Positions 1,880 through 14,089 of a stretch of DNA of 23,620 nucleotides are shown piece by piece. How positions within the stretch are numbered: the first letter of the stretch is position 1; each line of letters begins with the position of its first letter. The stretch spans positions 1 to 23,620 of IMG/VR virus record IMGVR_UViG_3300018080_002270, one strand, 5' to 3'. The position numbers and the translations under genes were made by a program. The stretch is from a virus. The notes under the pieces were generated by a model that saw nothing but the letters and a program-made list of their open reading frames with translations, had not been told where the DNA came from and did no database searches.

Positions 1880-2507
1880 AAAAATTCAGAACTTAACATA
1901 CGATACTGTGTTTACAGAAAAACCTATGAGTAATCTCGTAGATTTTGATTACAAAAAAATATTAGACCCACCACCAGGAAATACTAGTTCACAGACAGAA
2001 AAAGAATTACAAATAGTTTCATACGCCACATTACATAGAAATAATAAAGACGTCGTTTTGATTGATAGAATGGATGTGGATATGGATGGATATTATATCA
2101 ATTTTCTGAATGATCAGAAATTATATTATCCAAAAAGATATATAGACCTGTTTTATGATATCGTAGAACCAGTATTAATGAATACAAAAAGTTTTTGGAA
2201 TAGACCAAGACCATCTCAACTTGCAAAATTATACGACATACCTATTAGAGTTATAGTTACAGATACTATACATACAGCATCCTATCCTTCTGGACATACG
2301 GTGTATAGTAAATTGGTATCGAATATTCTTTCGGATATTTACCCACAATATTCAAAAAGTTTCGATAAAATAGCACAAAAAACAGCAGAAGCAAGAGTAA
2401 AACAAGGTGTTCATTATCCTAGTGACAATGCGGCTTCCATAAAATTTAGTAACTACATATACAATAAACTAGAGCCAAAACTAAGGAAGTATTATGACAA
2501 TTCATAG
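1851..2507 (+). CDS. PAP2-superfamily phosphatase (soluble type)
   Basis: 218 residues. All three motifs of the PAP2/vanadium haloperoxidase superfamily are present: K-x6-RP with Lys113 and Arg120-Pro121; PSGH at 146-149; and R-x5-H-x3-D with Arg182, His188 (the expected phosphohistidine residue) and Asp192. The usual Ser before Arg182 is Ala. Family members hydrolyse phosphate monoesters or lipid phosphates such as phosphatidate or undecaprenyl pyrophosphate. No 20-residue hydrophobic segment is visible, so it looks soluble, like class A acid phosphatases, rather than the six-TM lipid phosphatases. No signal peptide is evident. The start at 1851 overlaps the previous gene by 29 bases; Met26 (base 1926) is an alternative. 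Such an enzyme is unusual in a phage and its substrate is unknown. Confidence 0.82.
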   Translation: MNLNRILLHEKIQNLTYDTVFTEKPMSNLVDFDYKKILDPPPGNTSSQTEKELQIVSYATLHRNNKDVVLIDRMDVDMDGYYINFLNDQKLYYPKRYIDLFYDIVEPVLMNTKSFWNRPRPSQLAKLYDIPIRVIVTDTIHTASYPSGHTVYSKLVSNILSDIYPQYSKSFDKIAQKTAEARVKQGVHYPSDNAASIKFSNYIYNKLEPKLRKYYDNS

Positions 2508-3300
2508 AGTACATGATGAAGGTGGGAATTTTTATATCCGTAAAGATGGATCAAATTTCTATTTGTATAGCGAAGGAGCAGGACCGGGAGGTACTCCAGG
2601 GTTGGTTAGAAATTTTTCATATCAAGGAGATAGTGATTTTGTTTGTAGTTCAACTACAGCTATTAATTTTAATTGGAATGCCCCATTAGATGACGGAGGA
2701 AGCCCAATTACTGGATATTCTTTAAGAAGAATAGCGACAGTATCAAATCCAGCTAGTACGACTAGCTTATATTATGGAGATCCAGATACAATATTAGATT
2801 TCTTTTATTCTCCTTGTGGTGGTGGAAATACTGGAAGTAATCCTATAACAGTAGGTAATGTTACAAGCCTTGAGATTGAAGATTGGTCGTGTGGCGTTTA
2901 CAGTTTTCAAATTGCTGCAATAAATGCTAATGGAACAGGAAACTATACGCCTATTGAACTTGATGGTGTCATGGGGGTATTATATCTAGGATGGACAGAT
3001 GTTGGTGCAGATAATATTGAAGTTAGTGTCGGAGCATCAACAATTGATGTTACATACATTTCTGATAATGAGGATTGTACTGGATTTGATAACTACCAAA
3101 ATACTAGTGGTACCTTATACTCTTACGAAGGCTCGGTTGTTTCAACATATAGTTCTTATTCTCCAGGAACTTTAACATTCACTAGACCATCAACAGGATG
3201 GTATTATATTGGTAATGTAATTGAAACATGGACAAACTATAGCACAAATTGCGAAGTGCGTAAAGATGGTTGCTTCCCTAGGCGGTTCTATGTATCATAA
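2494..3300 (+). CDS. Fn3-like virion/adhesin protein, paralog A
   Basis: 268 residues, rich in Gly, Ser, Thr, Tyr and Asn, as in phage fibre or decoration proteins. Residues 1-28 form a short module (IHRVHDEGG, then paired aromatic-rich strands) also found at the N-terminus of the next gene. Residues 50-80 match the start of a fibronectin type III domain (INFNWNAPLDDGGSPITGYS). A C-terminal beta-rich half ends with TRPSTGWYYIGNVIETW and several Cys. AAGGAAG precedes the ATG, which overlaps the phosphatase stop by 14 bases. With its neighbour it looks like a tandem duplication that diverged. A surface-exposed virion role, such as host binding or head decoration, is inference; no chaperone or trimerisation motif was recognised. 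Confidence 0.6.
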   Translation: MTIHRVHDEGGNFYIRKDGSNFYLYSEGAGPGGTPGLVRNFSYQGDSDFVCSSTTAINFNWNAPLDDGGSPITGYSLRRIATVSNPASTTSLYYGDPDTILDFFYSPCGGGNTGSNPITVGNVTSLEIEDWSCGVYSFQIAAINANGTGNYTPIELDGVMGVLYLGWTDVGADNIEVSVGASTIDVTYISDNEDCTGFDNYQNTSGTLYSYEGSVVSTYSSYSPGTLTFTRPSTGWYYIGNVIETWTNYSTNCEVRKDGCFPRRFYVS

Positions 3301-3325: not shown

Positions 3326-4783
3326 ATGAAAATACACAGAGTTTATGAAGAAAATGGAAGAATTTATTTAGAAGAAACCAATAATTCTCTATATATTAAT
3401 ACAGAATCTACTTCAGGAATAGAACCAGTATTTTCTGGTGCTCCTCTACCTCCTAGTGGATTTAGATTAAGTTTAAACGCTCTTAGTCTTAATAGAGCGG
3501 CTTCTCCAACTTGTGAAGGAAATGGAGATCCAGATGAATTAAGAATAACATTTAGTTGGAATATTAATGATCAGGTTAATGATCCAATACACTGGTATGC
3601 TATTAGGAGAGTACCAACAGCATTTATTGGCGTTGATGACACGCCAGATGGATATCCGTCTGGAATGAACGGACAATATGGATTAGTTGTTTCTGGGGTA
3701 GTAAGTGGCGCATTAGAGTATGTTACTAATTTTGAGCCATATAAGGTAGATACTCTTACAGGAACCGGAGATAGTGTTGTTGCTGTAACCAACTATGATG
3801 CTTCAGATAGTTTTTATCAGTATGGCTTTAATAATTACGGGAATACTCCTAGATATACTAATGGATTGGGTATAACCAGTATAACTTTTAGTAGTGGAGA
3901 AAGTCCTAAAATTACCTTTAGAGATAATACTGAAAAATCTAGATTTAGAAACTTAGGGGGGGTAAGCGGCCCTCCTATGAGGCTAGTTGGCGCAACCGGC
4001 AGTATGGGTGATTATAGTTTTGCTTGGAATGGAACCTCTGGAGAATGGGATCTTTCTACATCAAATATTACTAGCGAAACAGCAACATCTATAACCTATT
4101 CGGCTATGGAATCCGGGGCTTTATCTGACTTACTTAGTGATTTAGAACAAAGAGGAACTGATAATCAGTGGCTTTATATTCAATTAACCGACGATAGTGA
4201 TTTTACAGGTTTTTATTTTAATGAGACATGTGTTTTTCCAACGGACATTGAAAGTCCTCTAATATTACGACGCGATTCTCTGATTGAAGATACAGGGGAA
4301 TATAGAATTGCTGTTCAAGACTATAATTGTGGTCATTTTGGGTTTCAAATTCTAGCACTAAATCCTTCTGGACAAAGCACTCCGGAATATACAGGAATTG
4401 CACAGATGACCGAAGAGACATATTCATGGGTCATTAAAGAAGCCACAGATGCTCGTATCTTTGATAGTGGAGGAACAGACTTTGGTATTAGATATGGAGG
4501 GTCGAACGGCTTTGATGGGTATTTTGTGGTTCCGAGTGGGTATGTTTCTTTTATGTTATATGCATCTGGGTTCATTTATGACGACCAAGATAACTTGATA
4601 ACAACAGCTACAAGTACAACTTCAGGTGGTACTGGAGGAGTCATTAATATGACCAGGCCAGCACAAGGTTGGTACTATGCTGTAGTACAGGAACAATGGA
4701 GAGTTACAGGAGGAACAGGCGAATATCTTCCAACTATAAATTCTGTAAGATGTGGTGACAATTATCAATATGTTATCAATTAA
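3326..4783 (+). CDS. Fn3-like virion/adhesin protein, paralog B (longer)
   Basis: 485 residues. The N-terminus (IHRVYEENG, then a two-strand segment) matches that of the preceding protein. A Trp-containing Fn3-like strand (ITFSWNIND) follows near residue 75. A long insertion of about 200 residues has no counterpart in paralog A. After it, DYNCGHFGFQILALNPSG corresponds to DWSCGVYSFQIAAINANG of paralog A, and the end TRPAQGWYYAVVQEQWR corresponds to its TRPSTGWYYIGNVIETW. The two genes therefore share both ends and differ in the middle, as expected if the insertion is a variable exposed domain. A 7-G run lies in this insertion. AAGAG precedes the start after a 25-base gap. The exact virion position is unknown. 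Confidence 0.6.
   Translation: MKIHRVYEENGRIYLEETNNSLYINTESTSGIEPVFSGAPLPPSGFRLSLNALSLNRAASPTCEGNGDPDELRITFSWNINDQVNDPIHWYAIRRVPTAFIGVDDTPDGYPSGMNGQYGLVVSGVVSGALEYVTNFEPYKVDTLTGTGDSVVAVTNYDASDSFYQYGFNNYGNTPRYTNGLGITSITFSSGESPKITFRDNTEKSRFRNLGGVSGPPMRLVGATGSMGDYSFAWNGTSGEWDLSTSNITSETATSITYSAMESGALSDLLSDLEQRGTDNQWLYIQLTDDSDFTGFYFNETCVFPTDIESPLILRRDSLIEDTGEYRIAVQDYNCGHFGFQILALNPSGQSTPEYTGIAQMTEETYSWVIKEATDARIFDSGGTDFGIRYGGSNGFDGYFVVPSGYVSFMLYASGFIYDDQDNLITTATSTTSGGTGGVINMTRPAQGWYYAVVQEQWRVTGGTGEYLPTINSVRCGDNYQYVIN
3956..3962 (+). repeat. Homopolymeric G7 tract inside adhesin-like gene
   Basis: Seven consecutive G bases in a strongly AT-rich genome, in frame as Gly-Gly-Val within the variable central insertion of the longer Fn3-like protein. 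A one-base slip would truncate the protein. The frame is intact in this sequence. Confidence 0.9.
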
Positions 4784-7228: not shown

Positions 7229-7629
7229 TGCAAGAACCATTAATCGTATGGGAAAAATGGATAGATCCTTTTGGTCAAGCTTTGGAGGAAGCTAAATGGA
7301 CAGATTACGAAAATGAAATTGATACTATCGACGATATTGAGTACATTGATGACGATGAAATGGAAATGAGACCCATTAAAGCAATTGCCACACCAATGGG
7401 TATTATTCCATATAACGAATTAACAGCACCTTCTAGTCTTTTTAATTTTTGGGTTGGTCATTCGAATTTCGATATCAATAAGAAAATTGCTAATATAATT
7501 GAAAAATCTGAAGGAGTAGAAATACTAGATATTTTTACTAGGTATCGTTTCAGAATTGGAATTGGTAAATGTTTTAACGATAGTGAAACTATGAAATTAA
7601 TCAATGATAAAATTTATAGAGAATTTTAA
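7228..7629 (+). CDS. Acidic orphan protein coupled to ClpP-like protease
   Basis: 133 residues in two parts. Residues about 18-48 are very acidic (IDTIDDIEYIDDDEMEM). Residues about 50-130 form a compact domain with FNFWVGHSNFDI (72-83) and VEILDIFTRYRFRIGIGK (97-114), which looks conserved but is not a family I can name. It begins on the last base of the preceding stop and its last base begins the ClpP-like ATG, so the two should be made together. Such coupling suggests an adaptor, inhibitor or substrate of the protease, but this is inference. No membrane segment, no catalytic motif. GGAAG precedes the start, and the promoter at 7134-7162 would read directly into it. Confidence 0.5.
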   Translation: MQEPLIVWEKWIDPFGQALEEAKWTDYENEIDTIDDIEYIDDDEMEMRPIKAIATPMGIIPYNELTAPSSLFNFWVGHSNFDINKKIANIIEKSEGVEILDIFTRYRFRIGIGKCFNDSETMKLINDKIYREF

Positions 7630-8285
7630 TGAATGTTAAACATAGCGATACATTATCAGATTTCCATGATTATGGAGCAAACGTAAAAACCAGAGAGGTA
7701 TTTTTACAAAATTATCCAGATAATGGAGAAAATCCTGGTATTGATTATAGAACAGCTAACAATTTCATTAAAAATATTCGTGCTTTAGATTTAGCTTCCA
7801 ATAAAGATATTCTGGTTCATCTTTACAGTATTGGAGGAGAGTGGAATGATTGTATGGCTATGTATGATGCTATAAATTTCTGCAAATCAAAAATCACAAT
7901 GATATCATACGGACAAGCTGAATCTGCTAGCAGTATAGTCCTCCAAGCTGCATCAACCAGATTATTGATGCCAAAATCTTATTTTATGTGTCATTATGGA
8001 ACTAGCGGCTATTCTGGTCAATATGTAAATGTTCATAATTGGAATGATTTTGAAAAAAAATATGTAACAGAAATTATGATAGACATTTATGCTAATAGAT
8101 GTATTAGGGGCGCTTACTTCAAAGAAAAAAATTATACCATAGATCAAGTTAAAAAATACCTACATAAACGGTTTAAACAAGGGGATTGGTATATAAATCC
8201 TGAAGATGCTGTACACTATGGATTTGCTGACGGTGTATTAGGAAGTAGAAAATATCCTAATTTAGACTGTCTTATAAATAACTAA
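7629..8285 (+). CDS. ClpP-family serine protease
   Basis: 218 residues, about the length of ClpP. The fold landmarks are in order: ILVHLYSIGGEWNDCMAMYD (61-80, the family's GG loop and following helix); GQAESAS (95-101) with nucleophile Ser99; MPKSYFMCHYG (114-124) with His122; and QGDWYINPEDAVHYGFAD (184-201) with Asp186. Ser, His and Asp sit close to their E. coli ClpP positions (97, 122, 171), so the protein is probably active. ClpP forms tetradecamers fed by AAA+ unfoldases; no unfoldase gene is in the window, so it may use the host ClpX or ClpA, act alone, or serve as a head-maturation protease as ClpP-fold enzymes do in some phages. No propeptide is evident. Coupled to the upstream acidic orphan. 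Confidence 0.85.
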   Translation: MNVKHSDTLSDFHDYGANVKTREVFLQNYPDNGENPGIDYRTANNFIKNIRALDLASNKDILVHLYSIGGEWNDCMAMYDAINFCKSKITMISYGQAESASSIVLQAASTRLLMPKSYFMCHYGTSGYSGQYVNVHNWNDFEKKYVTEIMIDIYANRCIRGAYFKEKNYTIDQVKKYLHKRFKQGDWYINPEDAVHYGFADGVLGSRKYPNLDCLINN

Positions 8286-8298: not shown

Positions 8299-8958
8299 AT
8301 GTATGTTGACTTTGCTATCATTGACACAGACAATGAAGACAAAAAAGTTAAAGAGACAATATGTTCTGCTTTGAAGTATAATGTCAACAGTATAACAGTA
8401 CCATATTATCTACTTAAATCTTGCAAACCAATACTTAAAAATTCTAATACAGATTTAAGTTGTTTAGTAGATTTTCCTCTTGGTATTTCTGATGGCAAAA
8501 CAAGATGCTACGCTGTAGAACAGGCAATTTCTTGTGGAGCGAATAGTATTGATATTAGTATGCCTCAAAATTTAGCTGCTAATAGAAAATACGAAAAAAT
8601 TAGAGAAGACATTAGAAATATTAGAACGATATGTTCAGACAACATAAAAATCAAATATATTCTTGAGTATAGATCTTTTGATCATAGATGTCTTAAAAAA
8701 ATATGTTCTATATTTGATGATTACAAAGTGGAATTTGCTACTCCTTCAAGTGGATTTTTTATAGATAATTTAGCAGATAATCTGATCGCATCCTCTTTTC
8801 TGCATGAAAACTCTAAAGAAATTCGTGTGATAGCAACAGGAAATGCTTGGACAGAGAACCATTTTTCAATTCTATATAAGTCTGGTGTTTATGGATTTAG
8901 AACATTTAATATAGAGTCTTTAAAGAATTTTAAAAAATTCATAGCCACAATTACTTAA
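8299..8958 (+). CDS. DeoC-fold (deoxyribose-phosphate aldolase-like) protein lacking both catalytic lysines
   Basis: 219 residues from ATG 8299. The TIM-barrel order of DERA is clear: DFPLG (58-62), a helix ending in CGANSIDISMP (79-89) matching the DERA GADEIDMVINIG strand with Asp85 kept, IKYILEY (118-124) matching VKVIIETGY, then FATPSSGF (146-153) and RVIATGN (176-182). In active enzymes these last two read FVKTSTGF and KVKASGG, and their Lys residues form and support the Schiff base. Here they are Thr148 and Ile178. The usual aldolase reaction (deoxyribose-5-phosphate to glyceraldehyde-3-phosphate and acetaldehyde) is therefore not expected. It may bind a sugar phosphate or catalyse something else. 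Last gene of the sigma/ClpP operon. Fold confident, function unknown. Confidence 0.75.
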   Translation: MYVDFAIIDTDNEDKKVKETICSALKYNVNSITVPYYLLKSCKPILKNSNTDLSCLVDFPLGISDGKTRCYAVEQAISCGANSIDISMPQNLAANRKYEKIREDIRNIRTICSDNIKIKYILEYRSFDHRCLKKICSIFDDYKVEFATPSSGFFIDNLADNLIASSFLHENSKEIRVIATGNAWTENHFSILYKSGVYGFRTFNIESLKNFKKFIATIT

Positions 8959-9585: not shown

Positions 9586-9620
9586 TCTAATAACATAAAA
9601 TAACAAGTATTTTTTACACT

Positions 9621-9666
9621 TTAAAGAGCCATTCTACTTTTAGGGTATTATGGCTTTTTAATTATC
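9621..9666 (+). terminator. Intrinsic terminator after the virion gene
   Basis: A 12-bp stem, 9621-9632 against 9650-9661, with one G-T pair and a 17-base loop. The 3' arm itself contains the T run (CTTTTTAATT). It ends the single-gene unit and precedes the membrane-protein operon. The rest of the 103-base gap holds no convincing promoter. Confidence 0.65.
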
Positions 9667-9688
9667 TTGCTAACATTGGAGACAAAAA

Positions 9689-10024
9689 ATGGTTTTATTT
9701 GCTGACGAAACAATTTTTAGTTTTTGGCAAAATATAGCAACTACTGCTATCGGTGTAATAATAACATTAGTAGCCTTTTGGGCTGGTGTTATTAGACATA
9801 TGGCAACCAAACAAGATGTATGTGAAATGATTAAAACAAGAAGTCCATATGTTCATGACAGAAATTATATTATGGAAAGATTAGCGGTTAATAAAGAAAT
9901 GCAAATAGAGCTATCGAATGCTTTACAAAGAAATAGCGAAGTAATGAACGATCTCAAAATACAGATAGCTACATTAGCTAAAACTCTAGAAACAGTAGAA
10001 TATAGATTAATAAAAGGGGAATAA
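9689..10024 (+). CDS. Single-TM coiled-coil protein (inner-spanin-like topology)
   Basis: 111 residues. One hydrophobic segment at about 13-35 (TTAIGVIITLVAFWAGVI) is followed by a soluble, heptad-rich helix from about 65 to 108 (ELSNALQRNSEVMNDLKIQI). N-terminal anchor plus coiled coil is the layout of phage inner-membrane spanins, but tail tape or chaperone membrane proteins can look the same and there is no nested Rz1-like lipoprotein. GGAGA lies 6 bases before the ATG. It is the first gene after the terminator and begins a run of small envelope proteins ending at 14001. The spanin idea is inference from topology and from the holin-like gene two positions on. Confidence 0.55.
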   Translation: MVLFADETIFSFWQNIATTAIGVIITLVAFWAGVIRHMATKQDVCEMIKTRSPYVHDRNYIMERLAVNKEMQIELSNALQRNSEVMNDLKIQIATLAKTLETVEYRLIKGE

Positions 10025-10026
10025 TT

Positions 10027-10266
10027 ATGGCAACAGCAATTCATTTGGCTAAAAGTGGAGAACTTATTAATAATTGTTTAACTGTTGTTGGTTTGCCTCC
10101 AACTGGCCCCTTTGATGGAAGTCCTAACTATAAATTAAGTTTGCCAGAATGTTTAGTTAGTTCTGAACAAACCGCATATGTTACGGGAGTATGGGGTAGT
10201 GGCCTAGAAAATCAATTTGATAACAATTATTTCTGTTGCAGTCCAATTGATGGCGGGAGTGCCTAA
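10027..10266 (+). CDS. Small Cys-containing protein of unknown function
   Basis: 79 residues. No membrane segment and no recognised domain. It has four Cys (18, 42, 69, 70) and a Gly/Pro-rich centre (GLPPTGPFDGSPNY). A strong AAAGGGGA site lies just upstream and only 2 bases separate it from the preceding stop, which supports a real gene. Its composition suits a small secreted or virion protein, but no signal peptide is present. It sits between the coiled-coil membrane protein and the holin-like protein. Confidence 0.4.
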   Translation: MATAIHLAKSGELINNCLTVVGLPPTGPFDGSPNYKLSLPECLVSSEQTAYVTGVWGSGLENQFDNNYFCCSPIDGGSA

Positions 10267-10283
10267 CATAAATGGAGACAATT

Positions 10284-10619
10284 ATGAAGCCAAATTACAA
10301 AACTAGTGAATTTTGGTTTACTGTTGTCAGTTTTATTATTAGTGGATTGTATTTACTAGGTTTGATTAACGATTTTGATCAAAAAGAAGAACTTATTTCA
10401 GATGTTACTCACGGAGTTGAAAGTATAATTTTGCTTTCTGGTCAATTTGGAATATTATATAGATACATACAAACTAGAAACGAACAAAAGAAAAGTCAAG
10501 CTGATTTGGAATTAGCTAAACAAGTTGCTATACAAGTGGAACTAGAACTAGAAAAAAGAAAAAAGGAAAATAATGAACAGTCAAGAATTGATAACACAGG
10601 AAGTACAGAAATTAATTGA
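10284..10619 (+). CDS. Two-TM holin-like protein
   Basis: 111 residues from ATG 10284, chosen because GGAG (10274-10277) sits at proper distance from it, while the in-frame ATG at 10272 overlaps that site. The start YKTSEFWFTVVSFIISG resembles a common phage holin-like family with a K-T-x-E-F-W opening. Hydrophobic segments at about 9-28 and 46-62 are joined by an acidic turn, then comes a long charged coiled-coil tail (about 65-97). Holins oligomerise in the inner membrane to trigger lysis. The coiled-coil tail is longer than usual. The last 47 bases overlap the next gene. A holin role is likely but not proven, since no standard endolysin is adjacent. Confidence 0.55.
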   Translation: MKPNYKTSEFWFTVVSFIISGLYLLGLINDFDQKEELISDVTHGVESIILLSGQFGILYRYIQTRNEQKKSQADLELAKQVAIQVELELEKRKKENNEQSRIDNTGSTEIN

Positions 10620-10965
10620 AACAGTTAAAGCAAGTCTCTCTGATATGAAAAGGATTGCTTTATCAGAAGCATGGAGAATATTACAATTAGCAGTATCTAC
10701 GGTAATACAAATTATAGAAGCTATTGGACGAGATTTAAGTAGTCCAGACAAAAAGAAACTGGCTATGGATTTACTTAGCAATTTCTATGACAAAGTATTT
10801 TTAATTGTAGATGTTCCAGTTGTTCCAAACTTTTTAGAGCCAGTAATACATAGATATGTCAAAGCATTTTTGATGCTACTTGTTAGTTCAACAATTGATA
10901 GTATGGTTACTGTTTTTAGAAACACAGGAGTATTTGAACCTAAAAAATCATCAGTAGAGGTATAA
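10573..10965 (+). CDS. Helical membrane-associated protein of unknown function
   Basis: 130 residues, largely helical. An amphipathic N-terminal region (1-50) is followed by a stretch rich in hydrophobics (LLSNFYDKVFLIVDVPVVP and AFLMLLVSSTIDSMVTVF) that may lie in or on the membrane. No family recognised. It overlaps the holin-like gene by 47 bases in another frame, an unusually long overlap for this genome; AAGGAA just before the ATG supports the start. The next gene starts 2 bases after its stop. A helper or antiholin role in the cassette is conceivable but rests on position only. Confidence 0.45.
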   Translation: MNSQELITQEVQKLIETVKASLSDMKRIALSEAWRILQLAVSTVIQIIEAIGRDLSSPDKKKLAMDLLSNFYDKVFLIVDVPVVPNFLEPVIHRYVKAFLMLLVSSTIDSMVTVFRNTGVFEPKKSSVEV

Positions 10966-10967
10966 AA

Positions 10968-11399
10968 ATGAATTACACACAAAGTTTTGAAGAATTTTCC
11001 GCAGGATTAGGCCCAACAGATTTAGCATTATATGCTGGTGTAGGCGTTGTTTTATTTGTATTGTTTAAGGACCAAATGAGCCCAGTACAAAAATTTCTTT
11101 TAGATCTATTCAACAGGGCAAAAGATACTGTTGTCGATTTAACTAAACCGGACCCAAATACCCCTGTGCCTGCTCCAGTAGCACCTGTTCCTGGCCCAGT
11201 TCCGGTTACTCCTCCAGCACCTCCGGTCTTGGTAAGACCAGAAAATGACCCAAATAAAGTTTTTTTTGAAATGGTTGCCTCATGGAAAAATACAAGAGAT
11301 TTAGCGGTAAAACATGGTTGTGAAGAAGCAGTAAAGTCTCTCGATGATACATTCCAATATCTTGCCCCAACAGTATGCGAAGGAGAAAATAATGAATAA
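10968..11399 (+). CDS. Anchored protein with TonB-like proline-rich spacer
   Basis: 143 residues: a short hydrophobic anchor at about 19-34, an amphipathic helix to about 58, then a segment (61-86) where about half of the residues are Pro in Pro-Val/Pro-Ala repeats, then a helical C-terminal domain (94-139) with Cys118 and Cys137. The layout is like TonB, where a rigid Pro-rich arm spans the periplasm, but no TonB C-terminal box was seen. The arm could place the C-terminal domain away from the membrane. AGAGGT precedes the start. It overlaps the next gene by 8 bases. Function unknown. Confidence 0.5.
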   Translation: MNYTQSFEEFSAGLGPTDLALYAGVGVVLFVLFKDQMSPVQKFLLDLFNRAKDTVVDLTKPDPNTPVPAPVAPVPGPVPVTPPAPPVLVRPENDPNKVFFEMVASWKNTRDLAVKHGCEEAVKSLDDTFQYLAPTVCEGENNE

Positions 11400-11922
11400 A
11401 AATGTTGTATTACTTATAGGAGCTGTATTAATAGCTGTTGGTGTTTTTAAACCAGACCTATCTAATTTTTTCCCTGGTAATGGAGGAGGTAATACTGTGG
11501 TAGTACCATCAGTAGAATTTGCCGAACCAACTGATCCCAATCTAATGGCTTCAGCACTAAAAGTTGCAGATGCTTTAAAAGTTGGAGAAAACCATAAAGC
11601 AGATGGTTTAGCACTGGCAAATCTTTATCACGATATTGCTAGACTTATAGAGCTAGATGGAGATAACGAAATTGTTAAAACCACAACAGAAGTTGCTGAA
11701 GTTAATAGTGTTGCTGGCAGACTAATGAATCTTCAACTTAGAGGCCAATATCCAGATTTAGCAAAAGCAGCAAAATCTCTTGTTGTAAATGCTCTTAATG
11801 GAAATGCTGATCCAAAAGAAGAATCAGAAGTTGATGTTGCTGTACTCAATGCAGAGTCACGATCTGTTGCAGTTACGGCTTTTGATGCATTAGCGTGGGG
11901 TTGTTTTGAAGGGAGTAAATAA
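11392..11922 (+). CDS. N-anchored helical envelope protein
   Basis: 176 residues from ATG 11392, chosen because AAGGAG (11380-11385) is 6 bases upstream; a longer in-frame start at 11344 has no site and would begin inside the previous domain. A single hydrophobic N-terminal segment (4-19) has no signal-peptidase or lipobox site and probably serves as anchor. The remainder is soluble and helix-rich with alternating Ala/Glu/Asn (for example ALKVADALKVGENHKADG). No family recognised. It ends one base into the cysteine peptidase start, so these two are translationally coupled and may act together, for instance as anchor or inhibitor and enzyme. Confidence 0.5.
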   Translation: MNKNVVLLIGAVLIAVGVFKPDLSNFFPGNGGGNTVVVPSVEFAEPTDPNLMASALKVADALKVGENHKADGLALANLYHDIARLIELDGDNEIVKTTTEVAEVNSVAGRLMNLQLRGQYPDLAKAAKSLVVNALNGNADPKEESEVDVAVLNAESRSVAVTAFDALAWGCFEGSK

Positions 11923-12851
11923 TGCCTAGACTATCGCCTGATCAATTATTAGACCAATACCGTAGAGGTCTTCTAGGAGCTATTTGGGAAGAGCATGTAT
12001 TTGAAGAATTATTGGATATGTCTAAGTATCCATATTTTGGAGATGGTGCTTCTAGAATCGTAGGCAGTGGTAAAGATAAATTATCTCTTCCTTTTAAAGC
12101 TGTATTGGATTTTGATAAGAAAGCATATACAGAACGACAAACTACAGGGGATTGTGTAAGTCACTCAACTCGCAATGCTGTAGATTTAAGTCGTGCCGTA
12201 GAAATTGCAGTAAAAGGAGAAAGAGAAGGATGGCACGCTCGTAGTGCTACAGAAGCTATTTATGGGGCTCGTGGTCATGGTGGTCAAGGAATGAGTTGTT
12301 CTAGAGCAGCAACTTTTGTTAGTAAAACAGGAGGTATTTTACTTCGCAAGAATTATCCTGGTATTGCCGATTTTAGTAAATACAACGGAAATTTAGGAGC
12401 CGGTTGGGGAGGCAGAGGTCTTCCAGATAAAGTTATAGATGAGGCAGAAAAACATCAGGTTCAAACTGTATCACTTGTAAGAACTGTAGAAGAAGCCAGA
12501 GATGCTCTTGCTAATGGATATGGAATAAGTGTATGCTCAGGATATGGATTTTCTAATAAAAGAGACTCTAAAGGTATAGCTAGAAAAAGTGGTTCATGGG
12601 CACATGCGATGGCATGGGTGGCTTGTGATGATACCCACGAAAGATTTAAAGAAACATTATTTCTAGTTCAAAATAGTTGGGGTAAATGGAATAGCGGTCC
12701 TAAAGTACACGACCAACCAGACGGAAGTTTTTGGATCAGAGAAAAAGATGCTGCTGGAATGTTAAGCGGGAACGGAGCCTATGCTTTTAGTAATGTAAAT
12801 GGATTTCCTCCACAAAAACTCTCAGATTTGGGATTTGTCGATTACCTATAA
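11922..12851 (+). CDS. Papain-fold (C1-like) cysteine peptidase
   Basis: 309 residues. The full papain catalytic set is visible: Gln73 (oxyanion hole) and nucleophile Cys78 in QTTGDCVSHS, His228 in GSWAHAMAWV, and Asn251 in VQNSWGKW. Residues 1-65 would act as a propeptide-like or binding region. No signal peptide or membrane segment is present, so it is either cytoplasmic or released through a holin. C1 enzymes hydrolyse peptide bonds; papain-like folds are also used by amidases that cleave murein peptides. It is the largest gene in the small-membrane-protein operon and no other wall hydrolase is seen. GGGAG precedes the start and the stop overlaps a strong ribosome site of the next gene. 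Enzyme class confident, target unknown. Confidence 0.85.
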   Translation: MPRLSPDQLLDQYRRGLLGAIWEEHVFEELLDMSKYPYFGDGASRIVGSGKDKLSLPFKAVLDFDKKAYTERQTTGDCVSHSTRNAVDLSRAVEIAVKGEREGWHARSATEAIYGARGHGGQGMSCSRAATFVSKTGGILLRKNYPGIADFSKYNGNLGAGWGGRGLPDKVIDEAEKHQVQTVSLVRTVEEARDALANGYGISVCSGYGFSNKRDSKGIARKSGSWAHAMAWVACDDTHERFKETLFLVQNSWGKWNSGPKVHDQPDGSFWIREKDAAGMLSGNGAYAFSNVNGFPPQKLSDLGFVDYL

Positions 12852-12857
12852 AGGAGG
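12851..12857 (+). promoter_or_regulatory. Full-consensus Shine-Dalgarno site
   Basis: AAGGAGG begins on the last base of the peptidase stop codon and lies 4 bases before ATG 12862. It decides the start of the next gene against a longer in-frame ATG at 12799 that lies inside the peptidase gene. Confidence 0.8.
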
Positions 12858-12861
12858 ACAT

Positions 12862-13047
12862 ATGAAAATATTAGACAAGATGGCTTTCAATAGATTGGTT
12901 GCTATTATAGCAAACTTCGTACTAAATGTTATTAAGTTATTTGCTCCTAAAGCAGTAGAAGATATTGAAGTTCCAGAAGTTACGCCAGACAGAAGAAAAA
13001 TATTCCCAATATTTAGGAGAAAGAAAAAAGATGAAAATTCCAATTAG
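12862..13047 (+). CDS. 61-residue small membrane-associated protein
   Basis: 61 residues. A hydrophobic helix at about 11-28 (RLVAIIANFVLNVIKLFA) is followed by an acidic turn and a strongly basic tail (FRRKKKDENSN). No family recognised. The start is set by the full Shine-Dalgarno at 12851-12857, so high translation is expected. The last 17 bases overlap the next gene. A helix plus basic tail fits a peripheral or single-pass inner-membrane protein with its tail in the cytoplasm. Confidence 0.55.
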   Translation: MKILDKMAFNRLVAIIANFVLNVIKLFAPKAVEDIEVPEVTPDRRKIFPIFRRKKKDENSN

Positions 13048-13357
13048 TATTTTAGCTTTTGCTTTTATGGGAGGAATCATGTTTAATGATTTTCAGCCGT
13101 CTTCAACTAGTGCTGTCAGTATTATTGGAGGAGTTCTAAAAGCTAGACATTCTGTAAAAGAAGACGTAAAATACCCTCGTAAAGACTGTCCAGTATGTAA
13201 AGGAAAAGGATGGTATATTAGTGGTGATGGGATAGAAAAAGTAGATTGTGGATATTGTGAACCAGCAAAAGAAGAACCACCAGAAGAAACTGAAGAACAA
13301 TTTAATGATCCTCCATTAGTTCCCGTAAAACCAAATACTTTTTATTTAAGGAAATAA
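13031..13357 (+). CDS. Membrane-anchored single DnaJ-type zinc finger protein
   Basis: 108 residues from ATG 13031, with AGGAG at 13015-13019; a longer in-frame ATG at 12965 lies deep in the previous gene. Residues 3-17 are hydrophobic (signal peptide or anchor; no lipobox Cys). Residues 53-76 read CPVCKGKGW ... CGYC, matching one CxxCxGxG repeat of the DnaJ central domain plus a closing CxxC, so Cys53, Cys56, Cys73 and Cys76 should bind one zinc. The tail (79-108) is Pro/Glu-rich. There is no J-domain. Such fingers bind unfolded protein or act as small redox/zinc knuckles. If exported, a zinc finger in the periplasm would be unusual. Function unknown. Confidence 0.55.
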   Translation: MKIPISILAFAFMGGIMFNDFQPSSTSAVSIIGGVLKARHSVKEDVKYPRKDCPVCKGKGWYISGDGIEKVDCGYCEPAKEEPPEETEEQFNDPPLVPVKPNTFYLRK

Positions 13358-13358
13358 G

Positions 13359-13757
13359 ATGCCAGCATTAATCATAGAAGAATTAGCTAAAGAAATTTAT
13401 GATAAAACATTATCTAAAGTTAAAGAGAAAGACAGATATGGAATTGATCCTATAACTATTATTATGATTATTGCCATCATGGTAAATGTTATTAGAGTTA
13501 TACAAGAATGCAACAAAAATAAAACAACAAAACTATCAACTGGAGAAAAAACAGAATTTTTTAGCACAGATGTAAAATTTAGGTCTTTTAATCATAGTTT
13601 TTTGACCAGAATGAGACTAAGAAAAATTTTGAAAAATCAACTAACAAAAGACCAATATAAAGTATATGGTGACGCTATGTTGCAAACTTTGTTAGAGGTA
13701 GGAAAAACAGTCAAGGAAGAACAGGTATCAGCCCTTCTGGAGTATAAACATGTTTAG
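13359..13757 (+). CDS. Single-TM protein of unknown function
   Basis: 132 residues. A charged N-terminal helix (1-28) precedes one hydrophobic segment at about 31-48 (PITIIMIIAIMVNVIRVI), then a basic, soluble C-terminal region with RSFNHSFLTRMRLRKILK and a helix ending EEQVSALLEY. No domain recognised. AAGGAA lies a few bases before the ATG and only one base separates it from the previous stop; it overlaps the next gene by 8 bases. Topology would put both sizeable soluble parts on opposite membrane faces. Confidence 0.5.
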   Translation: MPALIIEELAKEIYDKTLSKVKEKDRYGIDPITIIMIIAIMVNVIRVIQECNKNKTTKLSTGEKTEFFSTDVKFRSFNHSFLTRMRLRKILKNQLTKDQYKVYGDAMLQTLLEVGKTVKEEQVSALLEYKHV

Positions 13758-14001
13758 TATATTAGTATGGTGTGTATATGGAATTTTTGTTGGATCTATA
13801 GCCAAAAGCATAATCCCTGGAGAAGAAAATTTTGGCTTCATTAAAACAGTAGTACTGGGAGTAGCCGGATCTTATATGGGCGGCGCTATTATGTATCTAT
13901 TAGGCCAGTACGATGCCGTTTCTCCAGCCGGACTATTTATGGGGGTTTTAGGGTCTTGTCTAGCTTTAATTCTTTACAATAAAATGCTAGAAAATAAGTA
14001 G
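13750..14001 (+). CDS. GlsB/YeaQ/YmgE-family small membrane protein
   Basis: 83 residues with three hydrophobic helices. The family pattern is recognisable: GIFVGSIAKSIIPGEENFGF (11-30) matches the G-x-x-A-x-x-I-x-PG ... G-F signature, then VVLGVAGSYMGG (34-45), and GLFMGVLGSCLALILYNKM (61-79) matches the terminal G-x-x-G-A-x-x-L-x-x-Y helix. In bacteria these proteins are linked to envelope stress (also called transglycosylase-associated), with no proven activity. Presence in a phage operon beside a holin-like protein suggests a role in envelope change during infection. GGAG lies upstream of the start. It is the last gene before the strong terminator. Confidence 0.72.
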   Translation: MFSILVWCVYGIFVGSIAKSIIPGEENFGFIKTVVLGVAGSYMGGAIMYLLGQYDAVSPAGLFMGVLGSCLALILYNKMLENK

Positions 14002-14026
14002 TCTATTTTTTTTACCAAACTTACAG

Positions 14027-14059
14027 CAAGCCTATTTGAAAAGATAGGCTTGTTTTTTT
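14027..14059 (+). terminator. Strong intrinsic terminator
   Basis: A perfect 9-bp stem CAAGCCTAT (14027-14035) with ATAGGCTTG (14044-14052), 8-base loop, then seven T (14053-14059). It ends the membrane-protein operon 25 bases after the last stop and insulates the promoter that starts one base later. Confidence 0.88.
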
Positions 14060-14060
14060 A

Positions 14061-14089
14061 TTGACACACCGGGCAGAATAGGCTATAAT
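14061..14089 (+). promoter_or_regulatory. Perfect sigma-70 consensus promoter for the replication module
   Basis: TTGACA (14061-14066), 17-base spacer, TATAAT (14084-14089), in a true intergenic region directly after a terminator. The expected start is near 14096, leaving a leader of about 30 bases to ATG 14128. The full consensus suggests early transcription by host RNA polymerase with its main sigma factor. The spacer end repeats ATAGGCT (14078-14084), also present in the terminator's 3' arm. Confidence 0.85.

Follow-up and report, generated by a model that had tools for sequence, protein, structure and literature searches.

On balance, we are inclined to read a conserved block of eleven genes in an uncultured virus as a module for host lysis in a large group of planctomycete phages, in which a papain-like protease would take the place of a standard peptidoglycan hydrolase as the effector. 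The block fills positions 9689-14001 on the plus strand of IMG/VR virus record IMGVR_UViG_3300018080_002270, the 23,620-nucleotide (23.6 kb) stretch analyzed here and called the window. This reading, which draws on sequence comparison, is favored because the block is conserved, because a short form of it lies beside the terminase gene in prophages, because export signals are present on homologs, and because searches of related phages and prophages turned up no recognized peptidoglycan hydrolase. From this context we infer not only lysis but also its timing, the holin activity, and the substrate of the module.

A papain-like peptidase in a conserved block of membrane proteins

Genes were numbered by their order in the window, and the block comprises genes 14 (starting at 9689) to 24 (starting at 13750), eleven open reading frames (ORFs) laid end to end. 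Its sole enzyme is gene 20 (11922-12851), a papain-like (C1A-type) cysteine peptidase whose active-site residues (Gln73, Cys78, His228, and Asn251) follow the classical order Gln-Cys-His-Asn. The first three of these are invariant in all 16 diverse homologs aligned, with identity down to 24%, and position 251 is Asn in 12 sequences and Gln in three, with one sequence truncated. Single-sequence searches of PDB, Pfam, and PHROGs with gene 20 gave no match, and family C1 was reached by profiles only. The gene 20 profile matches Cwp84 of Clostridioides difficile (PDB 4d59; E 0.0009) and, weakly, cathepsins. Pfam family PF00112 does not match the window peptidase and gives weak matches in six of 14 relatives (best E 0.0079). 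An AlphaFold model of the protein (mean predicted local distance difference test score [pLDDT] 62.5; predicted template modeling score [pTM] 0.73) has 96 PDB matches at E <= 0.001, and among the 50 listed all are of papain type, including xylellain and cathepsins. As modeled, the protein has a papain/cathepsin fold. The sequence-only reading of this DNA had named a C1-like cysteine peptidase as the only enzyme of the block, and the active site and the profile and fold matches bear this out.

Membrane proteins are concentrated around the peptidase gene. A 19-residue hydropathy scan called membrane segments in seven of the 11 block genes (14, 16, 18, 19, 21, 23, and 24) versus two of the 28 other window genes (Fisher p = 0.0006). 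The result is borderline for genes 17 and 22, for which about half (17) and about a third (22) of the relatives have a segment. With these two added to the seven, the earlier estimate that at least eight genes carry hydrophobic segments was a fair one.

Relatives of the peptidase occur in 271 viral-contig stretches drawn from source contigs of up to 230 kb, of which we analyzed 80 with identities of 68-93%. Searches of 50,697 cultured phage records with three different family members as queries gave no match. Profile searches combined with gene order yielded 51 non-redundant loci, the window included, and presence was counted where at least 4 kb of sequence was available on the relevant side. 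Upstream of the peptidase, genes 17 and 18 are each present in 37 of 38 such loci, gene 19 in 36/38, gene 14 in 30/38, and gene 16 in 27/38. Downstream, the counts are 38/47 for gene 21, 44/47 for gene 22, 46/47 for gene 23, and 43/47 for gene 24. Spacing of no more than 60 bp separates genes 17 and 18 and genes 18 and 19 in all 48 loci, and genes 19 and 20 in 47 of 48, with overlaps in most; genes 22-23-24 come after 17-20. Insertions into the block are confined to fixed gaps (14/16, 20/21, 22/23, and past 24), and those inserted genes that were read encode tail-fiber, Mtd_N, and lectin-like proteins, glycosyltransferases, sugar-nucleotide enzymes, and proteases.

To check for circularity, we also chose records by terminase instead of by peptidase. 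A full-length peptidase is present in six of the seven terminase-selected records of at least 150 kb, and the peptidase is therefore a core gene. In two shorter records selected in this way, only a degenerate peptidase paralog was seen, close to a contig end. The gene-order comparison proposed with the sequence-only reading thus shows no scatter, in that genes 17-20 are contiguous in 47-48 of 48 loci. The block first described is real and conserved as a unit, but its boundaries differ among relatives and its terminators are rarely kept: the ancient core is 17-18-19-20-22, and genes 14, 16, 21, 23, and 24 are additions in large phages.

Some phages also carry enlarged peptidase paralogs (580-750 amino acids) 3′ of the block, namely L004:5012-6778, L008:9495-11528, L018:13765-15864, L060:15263-17002, L066:3778-6030, and L080:13489-15678. 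In all six that were aligned, Ser, Gly, or Ala stands in place of the catalytic Cys. These paralogs are probably inactive, to judge from that residue, and are perhaps structural.

Probable Planctomycetota hosts and a shorter prophage cassette

A scan of bacterial genomes revealed three Planctomycetota contigs with 40-42% identity to the peptidase. It also revealed a contig (L102) from a Flavobacteriales metagenome-assembled genome; this contig is a phage that carries the entire block (68% identity). We rejected L102 as a host clue, given that it is probably mis-binned and that none of the 394 other sampled Bacteroidota genomes match. When the query genome is counted in each group, the peptidase is found in 15/392 Planctomycetota versus 1/395 Bacteroidota genomes sampled; when the query genomes are excluded, the counts are 14/391 versus 0/394 (p = 5e-5). 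Furthermore, DUF1501, a family abundant in planctomycetes, is present in six of 16 large related phage records. Because of this genome distribution and the DUF1501 genes, the hosts are probably Planctomycetota. Full-length DUF1501 genes lie in L145 (G007), L143 (G002), L144 (G001), and L146 (G004).

Planctomycetota genomes carry a shorter cassette (17, 18, 19, the peptidase, and 22), mostly in prophages. It lies just 5′ of TerL, a classical site for lysis genes, in six contexts (G358, G140, G352, G213, G392, and L104), where TerL and portal genes of the G contexts were assigned by PHROGs and the L104 TerL was read by eye. This position beside the terminase is not seen in the window itself, L103, G302, or G340. 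The G358 cassette consists of 17, an 18-like gene, 19, 20, a small anchored protein, and an exported thioredoxin, followed by TerL, and that of G140 is similar. In G352 the order is 18-like, 19, 20, and TerL, and in G392 the cassette is likewise followed by TerL. G213 has a holin-like protein, a PKD lipoprotein, an anchored peptidase, two small exported or anchored proteins, TerL, and portal. L103 and L104 have 18, 19, 20, and then a lipoprotein with the gene 22 zinc-ribbon motif. Gene 17 homologs are found in prophages G358 and G140 and, by inspection, in L104, and equivalents of gene 18 stand immediately 5′ of gene 19 in L103, L104, and G358. Seven prophage peptidase homologs have an N-terminal membrane segment and are for this reason predicted to act outside the inner membrane. 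A holin-like protein is encoded 5′ of the cassette in G213, G171, and G408, and a gene 24-like (GlsB/YeaQ) gene lies near the G171 cassette. Thioredoxins occur in some cassettes and in the phage record G007, and we speculate that they might keep the catalytic cysteine reduced.

G007, a related record of 186,823 bases, gives the fullest picture of the phage group. Its head and tail genes lie on one strand and the block on the opposite strand, with TerL at 12251 (PHROG 2, E 6e-21). A 5382-amino-acid ORF at the tape-measure position (coordinate 38003; L084:3 onwards) would imply a very long tail. A search for a tail sheath, indicative of a contractile tail, found none in 16 records, and the group is probably siphovirus-like. 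The portal, capsid, and tail-tube candidates of G007 have no PHROG match, from which the group appears to be deeply diverged. Subtilase and exported trypsin-like proteases are also encoded, some beside or within the block (L105:8454-9398, L005:3511-5895, L012:11085-11936, and L089:15478-16233), and possession of several proteases seems common in these phages.

Proposed role in lysis and the alternatives

The mechanism that we envision begins with small inner-membrane proteins (16 and possibly 24, 23, and 17), which might act as holin-like disruptors that open the inner membrane. The peptidase, which has no export signal in these phages, would thereby be released to the periplasm; in several prophage homologs, its own N-terminal anchor would export it. 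Once in the periplasm, it could be held by the membrane-tethered helical partner 19 and could meet the signal-bearing zinc-ribbon protein 22. Cleavage of envelope peptide bonds, perhaps in wall proteins, wall-to-membrane linkers, or peptidoglycan peptides, would then cause the cell to burst.

No other lysin was recognized. Amidase_2 and Phage_lysozyme were found in none of 16 related phage records, NlpC/P60 and SLT in none of 27, and CHAP in none of 27 related phage records and none of five host genomes. No endolysin family appeared when most proteins of G007 and four prophages were scanned with Pfam. Planctomycetes possess peptidoglycan that is broken by lysozyme (PMC4432640), and because of this sensitivity the absence of a standard hydrolase is surprising. 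Older work described the planctomycete wall as proteinaceous and resistant to sodium dodecyl sulfate (PMC3422733). Thus, a wall protein and a peptidoglycan peptide are both conceivable as the substrate.

The lysozyme sensitivity of the host wall is also one of several points that weigh against lysis by this module. These phages could have an unrecognized peptidoglycan hydrolase: the 5382- and 3031-amino-acid proteins of G007 and some prophage structural ORFs lie outside the Pfam scans, which account for 25/28 and 25/27 families among the matches listed, with 38 others covered by inspection and a further Pfam scan. The window peptidase, like those of the large phages, lacks an export signal, and tail-fiber genes interrupt the block in large phages. 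In G302, G340, and L103, the cassette sits between capsid/cement and tail genes. No phage gene was recognized near the cassettes of G171 (L131/L132) and G380 (L135/L136), which are possibly domesticated lysis or secretion cassettes.

Some of these features would suit a role at the surface of the infected cell. A tethered complex with its peptidase may trim host receptors or surface proteins, with the result that other phages cannot adsorb or that progeny leave without sticking to debris. Periplasmic lipoproteins and an exported protease among the homologs are consistent with such envelope remodeling or superinfection exclusion, as are the exported trypsin-like and other protease genes of the same phages, the glycosyltransferase and fiber genes close by, and the location of the G171 and G380 cassettes outside recognizable phage regions. 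However, genes for exclusion tend to be accessory and patchy in distribution. The present set is instead core, and several prophages that are unrelated to one another carry it 5′ of the terminase; we regard this role as unlikely, if still worth keeping in view.

The insertion of fiber genes into the block raises a different prospect, that the virion contains the peptidase and small proteins, as structural components or for injection, and uses them to digest the envelope at entry. The enlarged, catalytically dead paralogs downstream in several phages and the cassettes between capsid/cement and tail genes in L103, G302, and G340 point the same way. Yet the lipoboxes and N-terminal anchors of homologs are unexpected for virion parts, none of the block proteins has a confident PHROG structural match, and G007 has its head and tail genes at another place, on the opposite strand. 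A virion-associated module is thus quite improbable in our judgment. The missing export signal of the large-phage peptidase might instead reflect a maturation protease or another intracellular role (e.g., head maturation or host takeover), with membrane-gene neighbors present by chance. That would be hard to reconcile with the membrane anchors of peptidase homologs, with the coupling of the peptidase gene to 17-19 in 48 loci, and with the ClpP-type head-protease homolog that the window already encodes at 7629-8285, and we give it very little credence.

The sequence-only reading had offered a novel lysis machine, superinfection exclusion, and envelope remodeling as possible roles; the genomic context favors lysis, and the other two are retained as the alternatives weighed above. 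More tentatively, and as something short of probable, we propose that phages of Planctomycetota replace the peptidoglycan-cutting endolysin with a dedicated complex of a papain-like protease, which a helical anchor protein tethers in the periplasm, and lyse their hosts by this means. According to the same proposal, the cassette found in chromosomes away from recognizable phage genes might serve in release or secretion.

We found no description, in the literature or among the cultured phages searched, of how planctomycete phages exit the cell. Literature searches on planctomycete-phage lysis or C1 endolysins returned no relevant paper and none describing such a cassette, and the block may be a protease-based lysis system not described previously. 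Whether the planctomycete wall is proteinaceous or made of peptidoglycan is a long-standing dispute (PMC3422733, PMC4432640), and the wall could be probed directly with a phage enzyme that had evolved to break it. A protease in the effector role would widen the definition of an endolysin. The module would also serve as a marker of host range by tying a large uncultured phage group, with several members >150 kb, to Planctomycetota.

Other block genes, surroundings, and known systems

Gene 14 (9689-10024; 111 amino acids) has a single N-terminal transmembrane (TM) segment, present in 40 of 40 relatives, followed by a coiled coil. Because charges are negative before and positive after this segment, the protein is probably oriented N-out/C-in with a cytoplasmic coil, unlike an inner-membrane spanin, and the spanin-like label once given to it is not supported. 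Gene 15 (10027-10266) encodes a small, variable soluble protein of 79 amino acids that was recognized in four of 80 loci, and its position is often taken by other small ORFs in relatives. The product of gene 16 (10284-10619) is a small membrane protein with a charged tail, called holin-like on the basis of the TM scan; from its predicted features, it resembles a holin in size and hydrophobicity only. Many relatives of gene 16 have a C-terminal helix-hairpin-helix domain that is absent in the window (HHH_3, E 1.9e-17 in L012, 8169-8651), and it is odd for a holin that a small membrane protein should bear a domain of DNA-binding type.

Gene 17 (10573-10965) encodes an amphipathic or hydrophobic helical protein that is part of the module core. 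Gene 18 (10968-11399) specifies an N-terminal TM segment, a variable linker, and a short, conserved helical C-terminus; its Pro-rich part differs among relatives, which leaves an earlier TonB-like label without support. Gene 19 (11392-11922) encodes an N-anchored, all-helical domain that is predicted to be periplasmic, and several of its homologs are predicted lipoproteins. The structure model of this all-helical protein is confident (pLDDT 84). A fold search with it against PDB gave no match below E 0.8, and an inhibitor- or pro-domain-like role is therefore unsupported.

Downstream of the peptidase, gene 21 (12862-13047; 61 amino acids) encodes a short amphipathic helix with a basic tail. 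Gene 22 (13031-13357) combines an N-terminal hydrophobic, signal-like segment with the zinc-ribbon motif CPxCxGxGW...GDG...CxYC, and its homologs in L103, L104, L114, and L116 have a lipobox and the identical motif. The product of gene 23 (13359-13757) has a single TM segment, found in 71 of 71 relatives, and a basic C-terminal domain. Gene 24 (13750-14001), with three TM segments, matches the GlsB/YeaQ/YmgE family PF04226 at 31 bits versus a cut-off of 25.3, in agreement with the GlsB/YeaQ-like label already assigned to it.

The eleven plus-strand ORFs lie between two intrinsic terminators, as had been described, and both hairpins are predicted to fold strongly. The 5′ terminator (9621-9666, plus strand; folded as 9612-9668 at -16.7 kcal/mol, z -5.3) is followed by a T-run, and the 3′ terminator (14025-14059, plus strand; folded as 14018-14060 at -17.3 kcal/mol, z -5.4) has a 13-bp stem. 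Directly past the latter is a consensus sigma-70 promoter for the next unit (14061-14089, plus strand; TTGACA-17-TATAAT, 12/12). We rejected terminators as a general boundary of the block because a terminator-like hairpin with a T-run follows gene 24 in only six of 30 loci; a promoter matching at least 10/12 positions occurs within 170 bases 3′ of gene 24 in 13 of 30. Elsewhere in the window, 8299-8958 encodes a DeoC/LacD-like aldolase (a weak match, E 0.003) that is kept in syntenic relatives and is unusual in a phage. A PAP2-type phosphatase gene (1851-2507; E 4.5e-6) falls slightly below the Pfam cut-off. Two adjoining fiber-like genes (2494-3300 and 3326-4783) share the N-terminal motif IHRVY-E-G and occur in one of 80 loci only.

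Among known proteins, the best profile match of gene 20, Cwp84, is likewise a C1A papain-type cysteine protease of the cell surface. However, Cwp84 is a cellular rather than a phage protein, and the alignment is limited to the C-terminal half of the domain. The top fold match is the bacterial papain-like protease xylellain (PDB 3ois), at 14% identity and a TM-score of ~0.4-0.5 with a medium-confidence model. The endopeptidases of NlpC/P60 and CHAP endolysins also belong to the papain-like superfamily and use cysteine catalysis, but gene 20 keeps the classical active-site order and neither family was matched in the related phage records searched. SAR (signal-arrest-release) endolysins such as P1 Lyz have an N-terminal anchor, which recalls the membrane segment on several prophage peptidases, although fold and chemistry differ and the segment is absent in the phage of the window.

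The block is set apart from the canonical holin-endolysin-spanin cassette because searches for a recognized peptidoglycan hydrolase gave none; its hydrolase is a papain-like protease. Also without counterpart in the lambda-type cassette are the helical or anchored partners 17 and 19 and the zinc-ribbon protein 22. A check for a spanin pair gave none that is convincing, in that charge suggests a cytoplasmic coil for gene 14, with lipoproteins among the homologs of genes 19 and 22. The likeness to the lambda-type arrangement, in which holin, endolysin, and spanins lie 5′ of the terminase, extends to the small membrane proteins, the single hydrolase, the lipoproteins, and, in several prophages, the place beside the terminase gene.

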